From: Aquisphaera giovannonii
GTDB taxonomy: Bacteria; Planctomycetota; Planctomycetia; Isosphaerales; Isosphaeraceae
Assembly (NCBI RefSeq): GCF_008087625.1
Contig: NZ_CP042997.1
Location: 3,472,001-3,536,000, forward strand
Direction: 5' to 3'
Length of the DNA stretch: 64,000 nt
Below, piece after piece: positions 19,387-35,235 of this stretch. The notes under the pieces are model-generated. The model ran no database searches. It was not told the DNA's origin and saw only the letters and a list, made by a program, of their open reading frames with translations. The position numbers and the translations under genes are program-made. Each line of letters starts with the position of its first letter. Position 1 is the stretch's first letter.

Positions 19387-20553
19387 TCAGGAGAGGGGCG
19401 AGGATGCCGGTGCCGGCAGGTGGTAGAGCATCACGTAGATGACGACGCCGGTGACGGAGACGTACATCCAGATCGGGAATGTGACCGCCGCGGCGCGTGC
19501 GTGGGCGGCGAAGAGGCCGCGGAGGGCCCGGTTGAGGCTGACCAGCACCAGGGGGACGACGCCGAATGTGGCCAGGAGGGTGTGGGAGAGCAGGATGCTG
19601 AGGTAAAGCCAGCGCATCGCGCCGGCGCCACGGAACGCGACGCTGCCGGCCTGGTAGTGGTAGGTGAGGTAGCAGCCCAGGAAGATGGCCGAGGTCACGA
19701 CGGCCGCCACCATGCAGAAGACGTGGCCGCGGACCGCCGGGACATGCAGGATCGGGGACGCGGGGGAGGGGGCCGAGTCGGGCCCGGAATCCCGGCCGGT
19801 CCCCGCCACGTCCCGGAGGCGGCGACGGCGGATGAGGCTCCACCCGGTCAGCAGGAGGAGGGCGCAGAGCCCGTTGAGGCTGGCGTTGACCGCGGGCAGC
19901 GCGCGGAGCCAGGCCGGCGCCGCCCGCCGCTTCGCCTGGGAGACGACCGCTTCCACCGCGGTGGGGTCGTTGGAATCGAACAGGCCGACGATCCGGCCGC
20001 GGTCCACGAGCGCCAGTCGGCTGCTGTGGGCGATCATCTCGACCTTCCCGTCGGCCGTCGGGACGGGGTTCGGATCCACCATCACGCTCAGCTTGAAGCG
20101 GGATTGGATCAGGTCATAGATCCGATCCCTGTCCCCCGTAAGGAACCACCAGCGACGGGGGTCGGCGTCGAACCGCTTCGCATACTCGTCCAGGACGGCG
20201 GGCGTGTCGTACTCCGGGTCGACGGACAGGCTGACGAGCAGGACGTCCGTCCCGGCCAGCTTGTCCTGGATGCCCTTCATGATCGAGCTGATCTTCGGGC
20301 ACTGCAGCGGGCATCGGGTGAAGATGAACGAGACGATCCCCACCCGGTTCGCCAGGTCCGCGTCGGTGACCTCCCGCCCGGACCGCTCCAGGAGGCGGAA
20401 CGGGCCGACACTCTCGGTCGATTCTCCCAGGTCCTCGGCCGCGCGCCGGGAAGGCGGGGCGAGGCCGGTGGCGGCCAGCACGATGGCGGCGGAGCCGAGA
20501 AAGGTCCCCAGGACGATCAGGATTCCGCGGCGGTAGAAGCGGGAGAGTTCCAT
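19387..20553 (-). CDS. SCO1/SenC copper chaperone fused to DUF420 membrane protein
   Basis: A 388-residue fusion of two cytochrome oxidase assembly factors. Residues 1-30 form a signal anchor. The thioredoxin-like SCO domain (about 48-205) holds copper ligands Cys81 and Cys85 (CPLQC) and His176 (IAHSS). A membrane helix near 225 is followed by a DUF420 region (about 265-388) with four helices and conserved His residues (HVPAVRGHVFC, YHYQAG, SHTLLATFG). SCO loads the CuA centre of subunit II, and DUF420 (CtaM-like) proteins help heme-copper oxidase maturation. Last gene of the oxidase operon, 31 bases after subunit IV. Confidence 0.92.
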   Translation of the reverse strand: MELSRFYRRGILIVLGTFLGSAAIVLAATGLAPPSRRAAEDLGESTESVGPFRLLERSGREVTDADLANRVGIVSFIFTRCPLQCPKISSIMKGIQDKLAGTDVLLVSLSVDPEYDTPAVLDEYAKRFDADPRRWWFLTGDRDRIYDLIQSRFKLSVMVDPNPVPTADGKVEMIAHSSRLALVDRGRIVGLFDSNDPTAVEAVVSQAKRRAAPAWLRALPAVNASLNGLCALLLLTGWSLIRRRRLRDVAGTGRDSGPDSAPSPASPILHVPAVRGHVFCMVAAVVTSAIFLGCYLTYHYQAGSVAFRGAGAMRWLYLSILLSHTLLATFGVVPLVLVSLNRALRGLFAAHARAAAVTFPIWMYVSVTGVVIYVMLYHLPAPASSPLS

Positions 20554-20584: not shown

Positions 20585-21025
20585 TTAACCGCGAGAGGTC
20601 TCGGCCGGGACATTCGCCCCCAGCAGGATCGGCTGCGCCTCCCCGGCGCCGGGCCGCGGGGCGGAGATGCTCATGGCCTCTTCCTCGTCCAACGGGTCCT
20701 CCGAGGACGACCTGAGCCCGATGTCCGGGCCCAGCGCGAGCGTGAGGAAGACGGCCAGGACGCAGGCCGGGATGATCATCAGGTAGACCCACTTCTTCTC
20801 GAACTTCAGGTGCATGAAGAACCAGCCGACCAGCCCCGCCTTGACGAGCGCCATGGACAGCAGCCCGAGCAGCAGCAGGGCGAAGTGGTCCTTCACCAGC
20901 ATCGCGTAGAAGTACTCGAGGAGCGTCAACCCCGCGAGCGCCGCCCAGACCTTCATGTAGGGCGCGTGGGACTCGACCTGGAGCTCCTCGGCCATCTCGG
21001 GAGTCAGGCTCTGGGGATCGGCCAT
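20585..21025 (-). CDS. Cytochrome c oxidase subunit IV family protein
   Basis: A 146-residue protein with three membrane helices (about 28-47, 50-70 and 80-98) and the typical FFMHLKFEKKW motif between the last two. It stabilises the bacterial heme-copper oxidase. The C-terminal 50 residues form an acidic, Pro/Gly-rich tail longer than usual. The ATG at 21025 is preceded by AAGGAG at 7 bases. It lies 25 bases after subunit III and 31 before the SCO fusion. Confidence 0.88.
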   Translation of the reverse strand: MADPQSLTPEMAEELQVESHAPYMKVWAALAGLTLLEYFYAMLVKDHFALLLLGLLSMALVKAGLVGWFFMHLKFEKKWVYLMIIPACVLAVFLTLALGPDIGLRSSSEDPLDEEEAMSISAPRPGAGEAQPILLGANVPAETSRG

Positions 21026-21050: not shown

Positions 21051-22019
21051 TCAGACGAGGTAGACGATCGTGAAGAGGATGATCCAGACGAGGTCGACGA
21101 AGTGCCAGTAGAGCCCGGCGTACTCGATCGTGTGGTAGTTCGTCGGGCCGTACGCACCCATGAGAGATCGGAGGAAGACGAGGATCAGGGTGATGACGCC
21201 GCCGGTCACGTGGAGGCCGTGGAACCCCGTCATCGTGAAGAAGCAGGAGGCGAACAGGCTCACCCACGGGCGGAAATGGCCCGTGGGGCTGATGCCCGGC
21301 GGGTAGTGCCGGCCGATCATGAGTTCGTAATACTCATAGACCTGGACGCCCAGGAAGAAGCTCCCGAAGGCGATCGTCAGCCCGAGGTAGGCCAGGCTCT
21401 TCCCCTTCTTGCCCTGCTGGATCGCCGAGAGCGAGAGGACCATCGTCACGGACGAGCAGATCAGGACGAATGTGTTGAACGCGGTGAGGTTGATGCTGAG
21501 GGGATTCGTCAGGTCGTCGTAGGGCTTGGGCCAGTCGTGCGTGACGACACCCTCGACGGCCGCCGCCGCGCCCAGGTTGGCGAGGCCGGCGGCGAGCGAA
21601 TCGGCCTTCTCCTTCGTCAGGTGGTTCACGACCATCGGCTCGCCCGCCGCGGCCTCGGTGACGATCTCATGGGCCTCTTCCGCGTTCACCTCGGGATTCG
21701 CGGAGCGGACGAGCTGGGCGGCGGCCTCGGGGTCGGACGCCCGAGACCGGAGGACGACCCCGTAGGTGCCGTCGATCTCCTTGAAGCTCGTGGTGGGGGC
21801 GTACAGGTTCGTGTACGAGGTCCTCGGGCTGCCGGCCCGGAGGACGATGTAAGAGCCGATCAGGCCCGTGAAGAACATGACCTCGGTGGCGAGGAAGAGC
21901 CACATGGCCACCTTGCCCGGCGTCACCGGGGCCTGGTGGTCGTGGTGATGGGCGACGGCCGGGGCCGGCCCGTGGGCCGGGCTCGGGGTCGCGGGCGGCG
22001 TCGCGGTCGCGTCGGCCAT
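21051..22019 (-). CDS. coxC: Cytochrome c oxidase subunit III with soluble insert
   Basis: A 322-residue five-helix subunit III: helices at about 37-61, 177-200, 208-232, 248-280 and 297-322. The N-terminal tail is His-rich (HHHDH, residues 24-28). The loop between helices 1 and 2 is about 115 residues instead of the usual few. Residues 101-158 of it follow the pattern of the ribosomal L7/L12 C-terminal domain (EEAHEIV, then LTKEKADSLAAGLANLGA). Membrane topology puts this loop in the periplasm. Family residues near FGSFFLGVQVYEY and GFHGLHV are intact, so the subunit should be functional. It lies 51 bases after heme O synthase. Confidence 0.93.
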   Translation of the reverse strand: MADATATPPATPSPAHGPAPAVAHHHDHQAPVTPGKVAMWLFLATEVMFFTGLIGSYIVLRAGSPRTSYTNLYAPTTSFKEIDGTYGVVLRSRASDPEAAAQLVRSANPEVNAEEAHEIVTEAAAGEPMVVNHLTKEKADSLAAGLANLGAAAAVEGVVTHDWPKPYDDLTNPLSINLTAFNTFVLICSSVTMVLSLSAIQQGKKGKSLAYLGLTIAFGSFFLGVQVYEYYELMIGRHYPPGISPTGHFRPWVSLFASCFFTMTGFHGLHVTGGVITLILVFLRSLMGAYGPTNYHTIEYAGLYWHFVDLVWIILFTIVYLV

Positions 22020-24053: not shown

Positions 24054-25922
24054 TCAGGCCATCACGGGGTCGAGCACGATGCCGGGCGGCAGGGGCTCGG
24101 TCTGGGGCAGGAAGTCCTGCTCCACCCCGGGCACGCTGTACTCGTAGGGCGGATGGTAGACGGTCGGGATCCGGGCGAAGTTGTAATGGGGCGGGGGGGA
24201 GGAGGTGCCCCACTCCAGGGTGTTCGCGTGCCAGGGGTTCACCGGGGCCTTCGGGCCCAGGAACAGGCTCGCGAGGAAATTATACGCGAAGATGAGCTGG
24301 GAAAGCCCCAGCAGGAAGGCGTTGATCGTCATGAACTGGTTCATGCCGATCACGCCGGCGCGGTTCAGGTACTCGTAGACGAGCGGGTCGGCGATCCGGC
24401 GGGGATGGCCGTGCATCCCGATGATGTGCATCAGGAAGAAGGTGCCGTTGAAGAAGACGAAGGTGAGGAAGAAGTGGATCAGCCCCAGCCGCTCGCTCAT
24501 CATCCGGCCGAACATCTTGGGGTACCAGTAATAGATCGCCGCGAAGATGCCGAAGGTGCTGCCGCCGAAGAGCACATAGTGGATGTGGCCGACGATGAAG
24601 TAGGTGTCGTGGATGAGGATGTCCACCGGGGTGGCGGCCATGAAGATGCCGGAGAGGCCGCCGATGATGAACATCGCCACGAAGGCCATCGCGTTGAGCA
24701 TGGCGGACGTGTACTGGATCCGGCCGCCCCACATCGTCCCCAGCCAGTTGAAGACCTTGATGGCCGAGGGGAGCGCGATCATCATCGTCGAGAGCATGAA
24801 CGTCGCCCCCAGGGCGGGGTTCATGCCCGACTGGAACATGTGGTGCCCCCAGACGATGAATCCGAGCCCGGCGATCCCGGCGATGGCGATCACCATCGGC
24901 TTGTAGCCGAACAGCGGCTTCCGCGAGAAGGTCGCGATCACGTCGGAGACCATGCCCATGGCCGGCAGGATCATGATGTAGACCGCCGGGTGGGAGTAGA
25001 ACCAGAAGAGGTGCTGCCAAAGCAGGGGGCCGCCGCCGCCGACCACCGGCGGCGAGTTCGCCACCTGCCAGCCCACCGGGCTGAAGAAGTTCGTCCCCGC
25101 CGTCCGGTCGAGGAGCTGCATGATCAGGGCCGAGGTCAGCACGGGCAGGGCGAACGCCTGGAGGATGGCGGTGATGAACATCGCCCAGACCGTCATCGGC
25201 ATCCGGAACATCCGCATCCCGGGTGCGCGGAGCATGACGATCGTCGTGATGTAATTGATCGACCCCATCAGCGAGGAGACGCCGGCGAACAGCAGGGCCA
25301 TCAGCCAGAAGGTCTGCCCGTTGAGGGAGCCGGGCGTGGCCCACTTGGCGATCGACAGGATCGGGTAGCCCGTCCAGCCTGCCTCCGACGAGCCGCCCTC
25401 GACGAAGAACGAGTAGGTGATCAGGACGAACGCCGGCCACATGAACCAGTACGAGAACATGTTCAGCTTCGGGAATGCCATGTCCCGGGCGCCGATCATG
25501 AGGGGGATCAGGAAGTTGCCGAAGGCGCCGGTCAGCAGCGGGATGATCACGAAGAAGATCATGATCGTCGCGTGCATGGTGAACAGCTTGTTGTAGAACT
25601 CCGGCGGCATCTGGTAGCCGAGGCTGGGCGACGACCAGAGGGCGGAGCCCAGGATCGGCAGCGGCTTCCACGGCCAGGCGAGCTGCCAGCGGATGGCCAT
25701 GGCCAGCAGGCCGCCCAGGACGAAGAAGATCAGCCCCGAGAACAGGAACTGGATCCCGATGATCTTGTGGTCCTGGGAGAAGACGTACTTCGTCAGGAAG
25801 TGGGACGGCGCCGGGTGGATGTGGTCGTGGCCGTGGCCGTGCTCGCGGGCGTGCCCGCGGCCCGGGTCGGTCGCCTGGGGCGCCGGGCCGCCGGGGTCGG
25901 AGCCGATCGATTCGGTGCTCAT
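24054..25922 (-). CDS. ctaD: Cytochrome c oxidase subunit I (heme-copper oxidase, aa3 type)
   Basis: The catalytic subunit that reduces oxygen and pumps protons. 622 residues with twelve canonical helices. The low-spin heme ligand His is in TMHATIMIF. CuB and active-site His-Tyr lie in QHLFWFYSHPAVYIMILP, with the HH pair in WGHHMFQSG and heme a3/heme a ligands in DTYFIVGHIHYVLFG. The D-channel entry residue is less clear and the N-terminal 45 residues are His-rich (HGHDHIHPAPSH), as also seen in subunit III. Starts 4 bases after the subunit II stop. Confidence 0.97.
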   Translation of the reverse strand: MSTESIGSDPGGPAPQATDPGRGHAREHGHGHDHIHPAPSHFLTKYVFSQDHKIIGIQFLFSGLIFFVLGGLLAMAIRWQLAWPWKPLPILGSALWSSPSLGYQMPPEFYNKLFTMHATIMIFFVIIPLLTGAFGNFLIPLMIGARDMAFPKLNMFSYWFMWPAFVLITYSFFVEGGSSEAGWTGYPILSIAKWATPGSLNGQTFWLMALLFAGVSSLMGSINYITTIVMLRAPGMRMFRMPMTVWAMFITAILQAFALPVLTSALIMQLLDRTAGTNFFSPVGWQVANSPPVVGGGGPLLWQHLFWFYSHPAVYIMILPAMGMVSDVIATFSRKPLFGYKPMVIAIAGIAGLGFIVWGHHMFQSGMNPALGATFMLSTMMIALPSAIKVFNWLGTMWGGRIQYTSAMLNAMAFVAMFIIGGLSGIFMAATPVDILIHDTYFIVGHIHYVLFGGSTFGIFAAIYYWYPKMFGRMMSERLGLIHFFLTFVFFNGTFFLMHIIGMHGHPRRIADPLVYEYLNRAGVIGMNQFMTINAFLLGLSQLIFAYNFLASLFLGPKAPVNPWHANTLEWGTSSPPPHYNFARIPTVYHPPYEYSVPGVEQDFLPQTEPLPPGIVLDPVMA

Positions 25923-25926
25923 CCGC

Positions 25927-26751
25927 TCATCTCCCCTGGTTGTCCGTGGCCATCGAGAGCTGGGACCGGTTCTGCTCCGCGAGGAGGTCCGCCTGCCACT
26001 TGGCGAACTCCTCGTCGCTGGCGTGCACCGTCACGTTGCCGCGCATCTTGTAGTGCCCCCAGCCGCAGAGCTCGGCGCAGACGAGCTCGAAATGGCCCGC
26101 GGTGTCGGAGTCGAACCAGACCGGGATGATCATCCCGGGCACGGCGTCCTGCTTGATCCGCATGTGGGGGAGGAAGAACGAGTGGATCACGTCCGACGAC
26201 CGGAGGTTGATCAGCGTCATCCGGTCCTTCACGAAGTGGAAGTCGTTGACGGTGTAGAGGTCGTCGGGCGTGTAGAGCTTGCGGTCGGGGCCGGGGTAGC
26301 GGAAGATCCACTGGAACTGCCGGGCGGTGACCTCCGCGGTCGGCTGGACCTTGGGCGCGGCGCTCCGGAACTTGATGTTAGCCCAGGTGCCCATCTGGTA
26401 GAGGGCGATGAACACGAGGATGGCCGCGGGGATGATCGTCCAGATCACCTCCAGGCGCTGGCTGCCGTGGAAGTACCGCGCCTGGCGGACGGGCCGGCCC
26501 GCGTCGTCGACCCGGTCGGCGAAGCGGTAGGCCTCCCAGACGAGGACCACCTGGGTGCCGATGAAGACGACCCCGGTGATCACCAGGATGATCACGAACA
26601 GGCTGTCGATCTCGCGGCCGAACGAGGAGACGCTGTGGTGCATGTCGCCCGACGGGTTGGGCAGCCACCAGTCGCCGGAGAGCGGGGCGTAGACGAAGGC
26701 CCCGACGGAGAAGATCGCCGCGAGGGCGAAGACGACGCTCCAGTATCGCAC
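25927..26751 (-). CDS. coxB: Cytochrome c oxidase subunit II with CuA centre
   Basis: Accepts electrons from cytochrome c through the dinuclear CuA site. The 274-residue protein starts at GTG 26751, with GGGGAG 8 bases upstream, avoiding an artefactual 39-residue extension. It shows an N-terminal hydrophobic segment (about 4-22), a membrane helix pair (49-75 and 100-120) and a periplasmic cupredoxin domain. CuA ligands are His190 (DVIHSFFLP), Cys225, Cys229, His233 and Met236 in CAELCGWGHYKM. No C-terminal cytochrome c domain is fused, so the upstream dihaem protein probably supplies that function. Confidence 0.95.
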   Translation of the reverse strand: MRYWSVVFALAAIFSVGAFVYAPLSGDWWLPNPSGDMHHSVSSFGREIDSLFVIILVITGVVFIGTQVVLVWEAYRFADRVDDAGRPVRQARYFHGSQRLEVIWTIIPAAILVFIALYQMGTWANIKFRSAAPKVQPTAEVTARQFQWIFRYPGPDRKLYTPDDLYTVNDFHFVKDRMTLINLRSSDVIHSFFLPHMRIKQDAVPGMIIPVWFDSDTAGHFELVCAELCGWGHYKMRGNVTVHASDEEFAKWQADLLAEQNRSQLSMATDNQGR

Positions 26752-26833
26752 GGGTGAGGCTCCCCTGAAGGGTCTTCCACTTCCGGTTCGGCCGCGGTTC
26801 CGCGGGGCCGGCCGGGACGTCTCGAGGCGGCGA

Positions 26834-28147
26834 TCAGCGGGCGGCGACCGGAGGCGTCCCCGACACACCCGGCGGGACTTCCGGCCCTCCGGGATGGGGC
26901 GACTCCCCGAGCAGCTCGGGCTCGAAGGGGAGGGCCAGGACGAAGTTCACGAGGTCCCACACCTTCTTCTCGTCGATGGTCGGGTAGTGGGCCGGCATCT
27001 GGGCGCCGGTGATCCCCTTGGCGATCCGCCAGTAGATGTCGATGGGCCGCCGGCCGCCCTTGTAGACGGTGTCCTTGCCCCGGTTCAGGTTCGCCGGGCG
27101 GAGCGGGTTGCCCCAGTCGTCCAGCTTCTGGCCCCAGAGGTCCTTCATCTCGGGGCTCAGGGCGTCGATCCGCTGCTGCCGCTCGCTCGGGTTGCCGCCG
27201 AAGACGACCTGGTTGAACACGTCCTGGGGGACGAAGCTCTTGCCGTCGCCCCTGGCCAGCAGGCCGTGGCATCCCGAGCATTCGAGCTTCTCCGGCGTCT
27301 TGCCGAGGAACAGCTCGCGGCCTCGGAGGATGCTCTCGCGGGTAGACTCGGTCCGGGCGATTGTCGGGTTGACGACCTTCGACTGGTCGGCGATCCAGCG
27401 CCGGATCACGCCGTCGGCGATCTCCGCGGCCGTCTCGGGCGAGAGGGCGTTGATGTCGGTCTCGTCCGAGATCGCCCCCTCGTCGATGAGCGCCAGCTCG
27501 GTCTCGCCGCGGATCGAGAGGAAGATCACGTAGTCCACGACCTGGTCGATCTCGAAGTCCGAGAGCAGGGAGTGGAACGCCGGCATCGAGGTCCCGTTGA
27601 GGCCGTTGCGGACGGTCCGCTTGAGGTCCTCCTTCGAGGGCCTCGCGCCGTTGGGCGTGGACGTGAACTTGAACAGGCCCTTGCGATAGTCGCGCGGGTA
27701 GGGATAGAGGAACGGGGCCGTCGGGCCGTCGCCGGCGCCCGAGACGCCGTGGCAGTGCAGGCATTGGCGGCGGTAGATCCCGTAGCCCCCCGCGTAGCGC
27801 GTGAACTGCTTGGTGACCGGGTCCTCGTTCGCCGAGTGCTTCACCACGCCGTCCTGGACCTGGTAGTTGCCCAGGTAGGCACCGCCGGAATTGAGCAGGC
27901 CGCCCATGGCCTCCGGGACGCGGATCCGCTGGGGATCCTCCCCGAAGATGTCCGCGAGGGCCTTGCGGACCTTCTCCTGGAGCCTCGGCTTGCCGACGAG
28001 GCTGGACCGGCCCTTGACGTCCTTCGTCAGGGCCTCGTTCTCCACGTAATGGAGCTTTCCCGCGAGGAAGCTGTCGGAGCAACCGGAGATGGCGGGAACC
28101 AGGAAGCAGAGGCCGATGACTCGATGAAGCCGACTCCGCACGGTCAC
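26834..28147 (-). CDS. Dihaem cytochrome c lipoprotein of the oxidase operon
   Basis: A 437-residue electron carrier anchored by a lipid. The signal ends in ISGC (Cys23). Two class-I haem sites are visible: CLHCH at 129-133 with Met189 as likely axial ligand (GTSMPAFHS), and CSGCH at 290-294 with Met in GAQMPAHYP near 388. The GTG at 28147 follows GGAGG and yields a proper lipoprotein signal; an upstream ATG would give a nonsensical leader. As the first gene of the cluster, 82 bases before coxB, it probably passes electrons to CuA. Only a weak promoter candidate is seen upstream. Confidence 0.92.
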   Translation of the reverse strand: MTVRSRLHRVIGLCFLVPAISGCSDSFLAGKLHYVENEALTKDVKGRSSLVGKPRLQEKVRKALADIFGEDPQRIRVPEAMGGLLNSGGAYLGNYQVQDGVVKHSANEDPVTKQFTRYAGGYGIYRRQCLHCHGVSGAGDGPTAPFLYPYPRDYRKGLFKFTSTPNGARPSKEDLKRTVRNGLNGTSMPAFHSLLSDFEIDQVVDYVIFLSIRGETELALIDEGAISDETDINALSPETAAEIADGVIRRWIADQSKVVNPTIARTESTRESILRGRELFLGKTPEKLECSGCHGLLARGDGKSFVPQDVFNQVVFGGNPSERQQRIDALSPEMKDLWGQKLDDWGNPLRPANLNRGKDTVYKGGRRPIDIYWRIAKGITGAQMPAHYPTIDEKKVWDLVNFVLALPFEPELLGESPHPGGPEVPPGVSGTPPVAAR

Positions 28148-28563
28148 GCGATCATCCTCCCCGCAACGGGGCGAAAGACTTCGACCCGTCGGTACCGACA
28201 AGAGGTCTCTAGACGGCCAGGAAACTGGCCAGGCACGAAACACCTGAGCGGCGGATCCGGGCGGCGCGAAGCCCTCGGAGCGTCGAGCCAACCCCACCCT
28301 CATAGGCCGGCCGCCGTAACGGAAGTTGTTGGCGACCAAGGAGTGGGGGTATTTTGACGCCCGGCATTCTGCGCCGTCAAGGCACGGACGACCCTCGATC
28401 GGGAAGTTATCCTAGTCATCTCCTCCGGCGCCGACAAGTCACCCGAAGTTTTCGTGAAATTCGCCGAGGACGAAATTTATGACGGGGCGGAAAACGCCCG
28501 ATATTGAGGAACGCTCCAGTCTCATTCCCCGTCGCCCGATCGCATACCAATGTGCGAGAGAAC
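28148..28563. other. Divergent intergenic region between oxidase operon and CPBP gene
   Basis: 416 bases with no gene. On the minus strand a weak promoter candidate, TTGTCG (complement of 28432-28437), 17 bases, TAGGAT (complement of 28409-28414), could serve the oxidase operon; its -10 hexamer is the same as that proposed for 6S RNA. A second feature is the pair TTGACG at 28354-28359 and CGTCAA at 28375-28380, an inverted repeat of 6 bp that could be an operator. Confidence 0.35.
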
Positions 28564-31007: not shown

Positions 31008-32504
<1,497 letters not shown>

Positions 32505-32546
32505 TCACGCTCGCGCGTCGGTCGGTCTTGATTCGGGTCGGTCGTG

Positions 32547-33470
32547 TCAAGAGAGGGCGGCGGCGGCCCCCACGATGTCGGCGAGGTCGCCGGTGATCTG
32601 GGACTGCCGGGCCCGGTTGTACTGGCGGGTCAGCGACTTGATCAGGTCGTCCGCGTTCTGGGTGGCGCCCCGCATGGCGACCATCCGGGCGATCTGCTCG
32701 CTGACCGCCGCGTCCAGGAAGCACTTGAAGAGCCGGACCTTGAACGAGACCGGGACGATCTCCTCCAGGATGCTCCCCGCGTCGGGCAGGAACTCGTAGG
32801 GGACCCGCTCCTTGGACTTCGCGGCGGCCTCGTCGGGCCTCGGGGCCTTCGACTTCATCACCGGCTCGCCCGCGGCGCCCAGGTCCCCGGCCACGATGGG
32901 CAGCAGGGTGGTGAGGGTCGCCACCTGGCGGGCGGCGTTGATGAAGCGGGTGTAGACGACGTCGAGCTGGTCGATCTCGCCGGCGATGTACATGGCGATG
33001 TAGCGGTCGGCGAGCCGCTCCACCTCGTCGAACTGCGGCCGGTCCTCGAACTGGTTGTACGTCGCGTCCATCCGCGTCTTGCGGTACTTCATGAAGTTGA
33101 CGCCGCGCTTGCCGGAGACCTCCAGCCGCGTCTCGATGCCGTCGGTCTCCAGCTCCTGGTAGCGGCGATACGCCAGCCGCAGGACGTTGCCGTTGTAGCC
33201 GCCGGCCAGGCCGCGGTTGCTCGTCAGGACCAGGAGCAAGGACCGCTTCACCGGGTCCCGCTTCTCGAGCAGGGGGTGCTTGACGTCCCGAGAGGTCTCC
33301 CCCAGGTCGGCCACGAGCTCGGCGATCTTCCGCGTGTAGGCCTCCGCCTCGGTCGCGCGGTCGAGCGTCTTGCGGAACCGCGCCGTGGCGATCAGCTCCA
33401 TCGTCCGGGTGATCTTGCGGATGTTCTGGACCGCCTGGCGGCGCTTGACGATCGCTCGGGCTTTGGCCAT
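32547..33470 (-). CDS. atpG: ATP synthase F1 gamma subunit
   Basis: The rotary shaft subunit, 307 residues. N-terminal helix begins MAKARAIVKRRQAVQNIRKITRTMELIATA, and the C-terminal helix ends RQSQITGDLADIVGAAAAL, both typical coiled-coil ends. The central Rossmann-like region has LLVLTSNRGLAGGYN. An insertion of about 25 residues (around 205-230, rich in Lys/Glu/Ala) is longer than in most bacteria. Spaced 61 bases from atpA. Confidence 0.95.
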   Translation of the reverse strand: MAKARAIVKRRQAVQNIRKITRTMELIATARFRKTLDRATEAEAYTRKIAELVADLGETSRDVKHPLLEKRDPVKRSLLLVLTSNRGLAGGYNGNVLRLAYRRYQELETDGIETRLEVSGKRGVNFMKYRKTRMDATYNQFEDRPQFDEVERLADRYIAMYIAGEIDQLDVVYTRFINAARQVATLTTLLPIVAGDLGAAGEPVMKSKAPRPDEAAAKSKERVPYEFLPDAGSILEEIVPVSFKVRLFKCFLDAAVSEQIARMVAMRGATQNADDLIKSLTRQYNRARQSQITGDLADIVGAAAALS

Positions 33471-33531
33471 CGGTGGTGTCTTCCGCTCGCTCGAACAGGG
33501 GTCGGGGCGCCGCGGGGGCGCCCCGGAGGGT

Positions 33532-35235
<1,704 letters not shown>

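Follow-up and report, generated by a model that had tools for sequence, protein, structure and literature searches.

A ribosomal L7/L12 C-terminal-like domain inserted in cytochrome c oxidase subunit III of the Isosphaeraceae

Five-helix forms of subunit III of the haem-copper oxidases (PF00510) have five transmembrane (TM) helices, a conserved glutamate in TM1 and the motifs FHGxHV and YWHFVDLVW. They are encoded in clusters with coxB, coxA, ctaA, ctaB, coxD and a SCO1 gene. Subunit III mediates the contacts between complexes III and IV in the supercomplexes of Flavobacterium johnsoniae and M. smegmatis (PMC8361435). In F. johnsoniae, where the oxidase is joined to alternative complex III (ACIII), these contacts are made by a five-helix subunit III (PMC8361435). 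The variability of subunit III may serve different partners (for review, PMC8361435).

The C-terminal domain (CTD) of the ribosomal protein bL12 (L7/L12; PF00542, structure 1ctf) has about 70 residues in the order beta-alpha-alpha-beta-alpha-beta. In bL12 it is the C-terminal part, carried on a hinge, and the protein has a separate N-terminal domain for dimerisation and L10 binding. L7/L12 makes contact with EF-Tu through its helices 4 and 5 (Kothe et al. 2004, as cited in PMC5770553).

Here we describe a CTD of this type within the subunit III encoded in a 64,000-nucleotide stretch (the window) of the 10.5 Mb genome of Aquisphaera giovannonii. Both component families are known, and no description of an L12-like domain in subunit III was found in the literature searched, which consisted of open-licence papers. 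Their combination is thus undescribed in that literature, although automatic domain annotation may show it in species where the domain is better conserved. A domain of the translation machinery has apparently been recycled by a respiratory enzyme as an extracytoplasmic component; its old binding face is erased and its fold kept. Within one family, some orthologues of the oxidase have the domain and others lack it while gene order is unchanged, which constitutes a natural experiment. The effect of an added subunit III domain on oxidase assembly, partner choice and supercomplex formation becomes testable, and cultured genera that bear the insert include Singulisphaera, Paludisphaera, Tautonia and Aquisphaera.

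The oxidase cluster and its subunit III

The coxC gene (21051-22019, minus strand) encodes subunit III of a haem-copper oxidase in 322 amino acids, as read from its translation. The product matches Pfam COX3 (PF00510) at E=9.8e-21. An AlphaFold2 model built on an 18-sequence alignment has five TM helices and a compact domain between TM1 and TM2, and among solved structures of subunit III it matches the chains 2yev_A (Z 14.6) and 1v54_C (Z 13.6). Both the COX3 profile and the five-helix core fold of PF00510 are found in the window CoxC, as are the TM1 glutamate and the two motifs of the known proteins. The nearest relative found for the window is Aquisphaera insulae, at 83-84% identity.

Unlike the known five-helix proteins, CoxC has a folded domain of about 74 residues in its TM1-TM2 loop, which is approximately 108 residues long. 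TM1 (residues 34-62; 21834-21920, this and the following features on the minus strand) corresponds to TM3 of bovine subunit III; it is a helix in the model and includes the invariant ...WLFLATEVMFFTGLIGSYIV... of the alignment. It is followed by an N-terminal tether with the pattern GSP..YxNLY.P (residues 63-84; 21768-21833). The L7/L12-CTD-like domain (residues 85-158; 21546-21767) is delimited by the model, the fold match and the profile matches. A C-terminal tether that includes WPKPY (residues 159-175; 21495-21545) leads to TM2 (residues 177-201; 21417-21491), which corresponds to bovine TM4 in the model and in the structural alignment. The tethers were defined from alignments. Confidence in the full model is low at residues 58-68 and 163-174, and over residues 81-160 the mean pLDDT per ten residues is 77-96. 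Both tethers (GSP..YSNLY.P and WPxPY) are conserved across the Isosphaeraceae, insert or no insert.

In the subunit III family the loop ahead of the segment that comprises bovine TM4-TM7 faces the intermembrane space, which is equivalent to the periplasm in bacteria. TM2-TM5 of the window CoxC align structurally with bovine residues 122-260, that is, with TM4-TM7. By this analogy the TM1-TM2 loop and its domain would face the periplasm. The original prediction, made from the sequence alone, also placed it there, for which homology with subunit III proteins of known topology gives good grounds.

The neighbours of coxC encode a diheme c-type cytochrome, CoxB, CoxA, CtaA and CtaB, followed by CoxD and a protein in which SCO1 is fused to DUF420; the gene order is like that of the known five-helix clusters. 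All those detailed here lie on the minus strand. The gene for subunit I, coxA (24054-25922), was identified by translation and synteny. Subunit II, with its CuA motif (CAELCGWGHYKM), is encoded by coxB (25927-26868; Pfam COX2_TM E=8.6e-11, COX2 E=1.4e-10; synteny), the real start of which is perhaps further in. The prokaryotic oxidase subunit IV gene coxD (20585-21025; COX4_pro, Pfam E=1.1e-12) was given the start MADPQSL by eye. The cytochrome gene adjoining coxB (26834-28339) is syntenic; its product has two CxxCH motifs, a Cytochrome_CBB3 match (Pfam E=2.4e-18) and a lipobox-like motif, VPAISGC. From this conserved cluster CoxC is predicted to be put together with subunits I and II as an oxidase, for which the diheme cytochrome is a plausible electron donor.

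Several other features of the cluster were observed. The SCO1/SenC domain is fused with a DUF420 membrane domain in a protein of 388 amino acids (19387-20553, minus strand), and orthologues of similar length occur in the same cluster of other Isosphaeraceae genomes. Genes for ATP synthase (beta/alpha-type nucleotide-binding subunits and gamma) are found nearby at 31008-35235 (minus strand), where the ORF 31008-32447 carries a match to a V/A-type C-terminal domain.

Homology of the inserted domain to bL12

The whole-model fold search was dominated by the membrane core and silent on the insert, so the insert was modelled separately. The model of the insert alone, made with 27 orthologous inserts (pLDDT 77.7), and that of full CoxC have the same order of elements, beta-alpha-alpha-beta-alpha-beta. 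In CoxC these are strands at residues 86-90, 129-134 and 153-157 and helices at 97-107, 113-122 and 136-148. This agrees with the fold expected under the original prediction, which gave the domain as residues 101-158 (21546-21719). The end of that interval stands, and its start has to be moved to about residue 85 (21546-21767) as it falls inside the first helix and misses strand 1. The insert model matches L7/L12 in 8yeq (Z 8.8, rmsd 2.6, 71 aligned residues) and 1ctf (Z 7.6, rmsd 2.2, 67 aligned residues), and the top Foldseek match is the L12 structure 1dd3.

Taken alone, the window copy has a weak L7/L12 pattern. It scores 14.0 bits (E=0.065) against Pfam Ribosomal_L12, under the 25.9-bit cut-off, and a phmmer search of the PDB gave no match below E=0.1. 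Against a bL12 profile it scores 9.2 bits, a score reached by 0 of 100 shuffles. A match to MAGUK_N_PEST (Pfam E=0.0065) was rejected; it lies under its own cut-off and is missing from the relatives.

The relatives secure the assignment. Several orthologous inserts exceed the PF00542 cut-off (46.0, 31.2, 29.4 and 27.6 bits), and inserts of other genera match Pfam Ribosomal_L12 down to E=6.8e-12. Of all the copies, that of L011 lies nearest to bL12. Fourteen of 27 inserts match PF00542 at E<0.01 (best 5.9e-12), and TIGR00855 is matched by 10. When a profile of the inserts is run against all PDB sequences, bL12 alone rises above noise: the first 15 rows are bL12 chains (2bcw_B 8.5e-11, 1ctf 1.6e-10). 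Profile-profile comparison with L12 (hhalign) gives a probability of 98.3% and E=2.1e-14, so that the profile search proposed with the original prediction likewise returns L7/L12. Run through whole genomes, a TM1-insert-TM2 profile first retrieves coxC and next, in nearly all of them, the genuine bL12 gene; in the window genome the latter is a gene separate from coxC (G000:C1:1321612, E=2.1e-10). Apart from CoxC, bL12 is the sole family found in this way. The window insert belongs to the same set because a profile of the other inserts recovers it at E=1.5e-13.

ClpS, the N-end-rule adaptor, folds in the same way overall (7d34_A: Z 8.3, 77 residues at 3.0 A). However, it is a cytoplasmic adaptor and not itself an insert in a membrane protein, the family was not among the hmmscan results for the inserts, and it is told apart from L12 by the sequence profiles. 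A resemblance without homology, be it a convergent beta-alpha-alpha-beta-alpha-beta domain or descent from ClpS, could appeal to this near-equal fit and to the subthreshold score of the window copy, but it is very improbable given profiles that match bL12 rather than ClpS and a genome-wide search in which no third family appears.

Judged by sequence, residues 85-158 are homologous to the bL12 CTD; this is shown through the orthologues, the window copy alone being too diverged. Profiles in both directions and the predicted fold bear out the L7/L12-CTD-like domain within subunit III, and the inserted domain is a copy of the bL12 CTD or a very close relative of it. The two have in common the profile, the hydrophobic core with the conserved G62, L110 and G114-A115, the size and order of elements, and flexible tethering segments. 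Unlike bL12, the insert has no N-terminal dimerisation and L10-binding domain and no hinge; it is joined at both ends into a membrane protein, with CoxC TM helices on either side.

Apart from bL12, the only PF00542 match above cut-off in the genome is a small protein (L002, G000:C1:544554-544640) whose sequence AAIKAYRAATGAGLAEAKRAVEEFM resembles part of a helical pair of L7/L12.

Distribution and sequence evolution

The original prediction proposed looking for the insert in other Isosphaeraceae, and it is carried by 30 of 45 genomes of the family, which span 13 genera. Twenty-six of these match the full model, two are cut by contig ends and two have an extra segment of approximately 40 residues between the first two helices of the domain. 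This charged segment was seen in CoxC of two Singulisphaera-type genomes (L069 and L068; G010 and G055). Fourteen genomes have the same gene with a TM1-TM2 loop of 34-39 residues, as against 99-118 residues with the insert, and one has only another type of coxC. The extra stretch between TM1 and TM2 is therefore real, but its size, put at about 115 residues in the original prediction, is approximately 65-70 relative to the insert-less Isosphaeraceae orthologues and approximately 90 relative to planctomycetes with very short loops.

In searches that covered 398 genomes from the class and 392 from the phylum, no genome outside the Isosphaeraceae matches past TM1, and the insert was detected in none of the approximately 350 non-Isosphaeraceae genomes of the class. 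A scan of GTDB 220 (one genome per species) found full-length matches solely of the Isosphaeraceae type, including Aquisphaera, Paludisphaera, Tautonia and Singulisphaera; its patterns were tuned to this family and distant cases may escape. In another planctomycete lineage a different, unrelated-looking insertion of approximately 60 residues occupies the same TM1-TM2 loop (L099/L070, the CoxC of JACQDU010000450.1 and G266).

Gene order is identical with and without the insert, and insert-bearing and insert-less coxC are for this reason considered orthologues. No cluster gene was found whose presence follows the insert when the neighbours were compared, their order being alike in all. In a tree of CoxA, CoxB, the CoxC core, CtaA and SCO1, with an unresolved backbone, three state changes are required. 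The insert-less genome G017 nests among insert-bearers (support 80) and is a candidate for loss. An AU test does not reject the grouping of all insert-bearers in a single clade (p=0.114). Glycine replaces D55 of bL12 in 29 of 29 aligned inserts and histidine is found at position 92 in 20 of 29, shared features that favour a single origin. The insertion arose within the Isosphaeraceae, in subunit III of a stand-alone aa3-type oxidase.

Of the neighbours, only the diheme cytochrome upstream of coxB differs (26834-28339 in the window; loci L170, L172, L179 and L180). It is approximately 200 residues longer in the insert-less genus g6 and in G021 (674-714 versus 438-551 residues), and the extra sequence falls between the matched parts. 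Cytochrome length was rejected as a correlate of the insert, as other insert-less genomes have a diheme cytochrome of normal length.

Residues were compared between 29 aligned inserts and 21 Isosphaeraceae bL12s. The factor-contact residues of helices 4 and 5 (E. coli numbering) we take to be K65, V66, I69, K70, R73, L80, K81 and K84. K65, V/I66, K70, L80 and K81 are retained in none of the 29 inserts, I69 and K84 in three (10%) and R73 in 38%; the insert thus lacks the factor contacts of a functional stalk bL12. The buried core and turns are kept (V56, L58, G62, V68, A103, L106, L110, G114, A115), with G114, L110 and L106 among the positions retained in 25-28 of the 29.

When the same pairs of genomes are compared, the inserts are on average 31% identical, the CoxC cores 72%, the CoxA proteins 77% and the bL12 CTDs 85%. 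In 17 of 17 pairs dN/dS is below 1 (insert 0.16-0.90, core 0.05-0.40), values that are approximate as they come from the simple NG86 method on GC-rich genes. The domain evolves fast but under purifying selection; its fold is upheld and its surface drifts.

Possible roles of the domain

We tentatively favour, at somewhat less than even chances, the reading that the domain is a recycled stable fold with a contact or spacer role in the periplasm, on the outer face of the oxidase and towards lineage-specific partners. As a module that tolerates mutation and hangs on two conserved tethers, it would act there by passive contact or spacing on subunit III. It could stabilise or shape the association of the oxidase with a partner, for example the diheme cytochrome c of the same cluster or a complex of the bc type. 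It is neither a GTPase-binding module nor a dock for ACIII. This role is thought most likely because subunit III mediates supercomplex contacts elsewhere (PMC8361435). Against it, the low mean pairwise identity of the surface is more in keeping with loose constraint than with a specific interface, and the domain is missing from 14 of the 44 orthologues, whose cluster is otherwise identical.

Second in rank, possible though somewhat unlikely, is a near-neutral passenger, a self-folding insertion tolerated between flexible tethers that selection merely keeps folded, soluble and harmless. The insert evolves far faster than the core, CoxA and the bL12 CTD, its dN/dS is several times that of the core, orthologues without it exist, and further insertions have occurred within it in Singulisphaera. 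Nonetheless, 13 genera retain it and dN/dS stays below 1 in all pairs, and an extracytoplasmic domain that has no use costs the cell its synthesis and can easily be deleted.

The original prediction suggested a docking surface near CuA and the cytochrome c entry site, which the data do not support: net charge of the insert spans 0 to -13 across species, and its surface is poorly conserved relative to the core. The form of this idea in which the domain captures cytochrome c, soluble or as the co-encoded diheme lipoprotein, near CuA is unlikely. Positive evidence for such a possible dock is limited to the proximity of the syntenic cytochrome gene, with its lipobox-like motif, to coxB. Many inserts are acidic and basic cytochromes bind acidic surfaces, and in bL12 itself the CTD, on its tether, catches protein partners (PMC5770553). 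However, at least six inserts have a net charge of 0, which rules against conserved acidity, no conserved acidic patch was found on the inserts, and the insert-less orthologues retain the same cytochrome gene. Also unlikely is a reuse of the stalk's catching-arm principle outside the cell membrane. In that case subunit III would bring a specific redox partner to the oxidase by means of its tethered L12-type domain, much as translation factors are recruited by the ribosomal stalk, and a new binding face would have replaced the one for GTPases.

The contact or spacer role can also be considered beside ACIII. A second coxC in the genome, which has no insert, lies on contig C2 at approximately 6 kb from ActD (PF11821), a marker of ACIII, and no ActD was found in the oxidase cluster of the window. 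Two cytochrome b genes are also present in the genome. The insert therefore belongs to the stand-alone oxidase and not to an ACIII contact. Here the genome differs from F. johnsoniae, in that its ActD-side oxidase genes form a separate cluster with an insert-less subunit III. A role as ACIII dock was rejected on the same ground and also because insert-less species have ActD. Conversely, the domain might bar the stand-alone oxidase from an ACIII supercomplex that uses the insert-less subunit III. The existence of the two paralogues, and supercomplex contacts that go via subunit III (PMC8361435), are consistent with such segregation, but it is improbable: at least nine insert-less genomes have ActD, so the insert is not needed for it, and the paralogues are already very different (29-44% identical).

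The second oxidase cluster (coxB, coxA, coxC; L175, G000:C2:100000-119000) is on a contig of approximately 132 kb, at a distance of approximately 4 kb from ActD, and the ACIII-oxidase locus may therefore be located on a secondary replicon.
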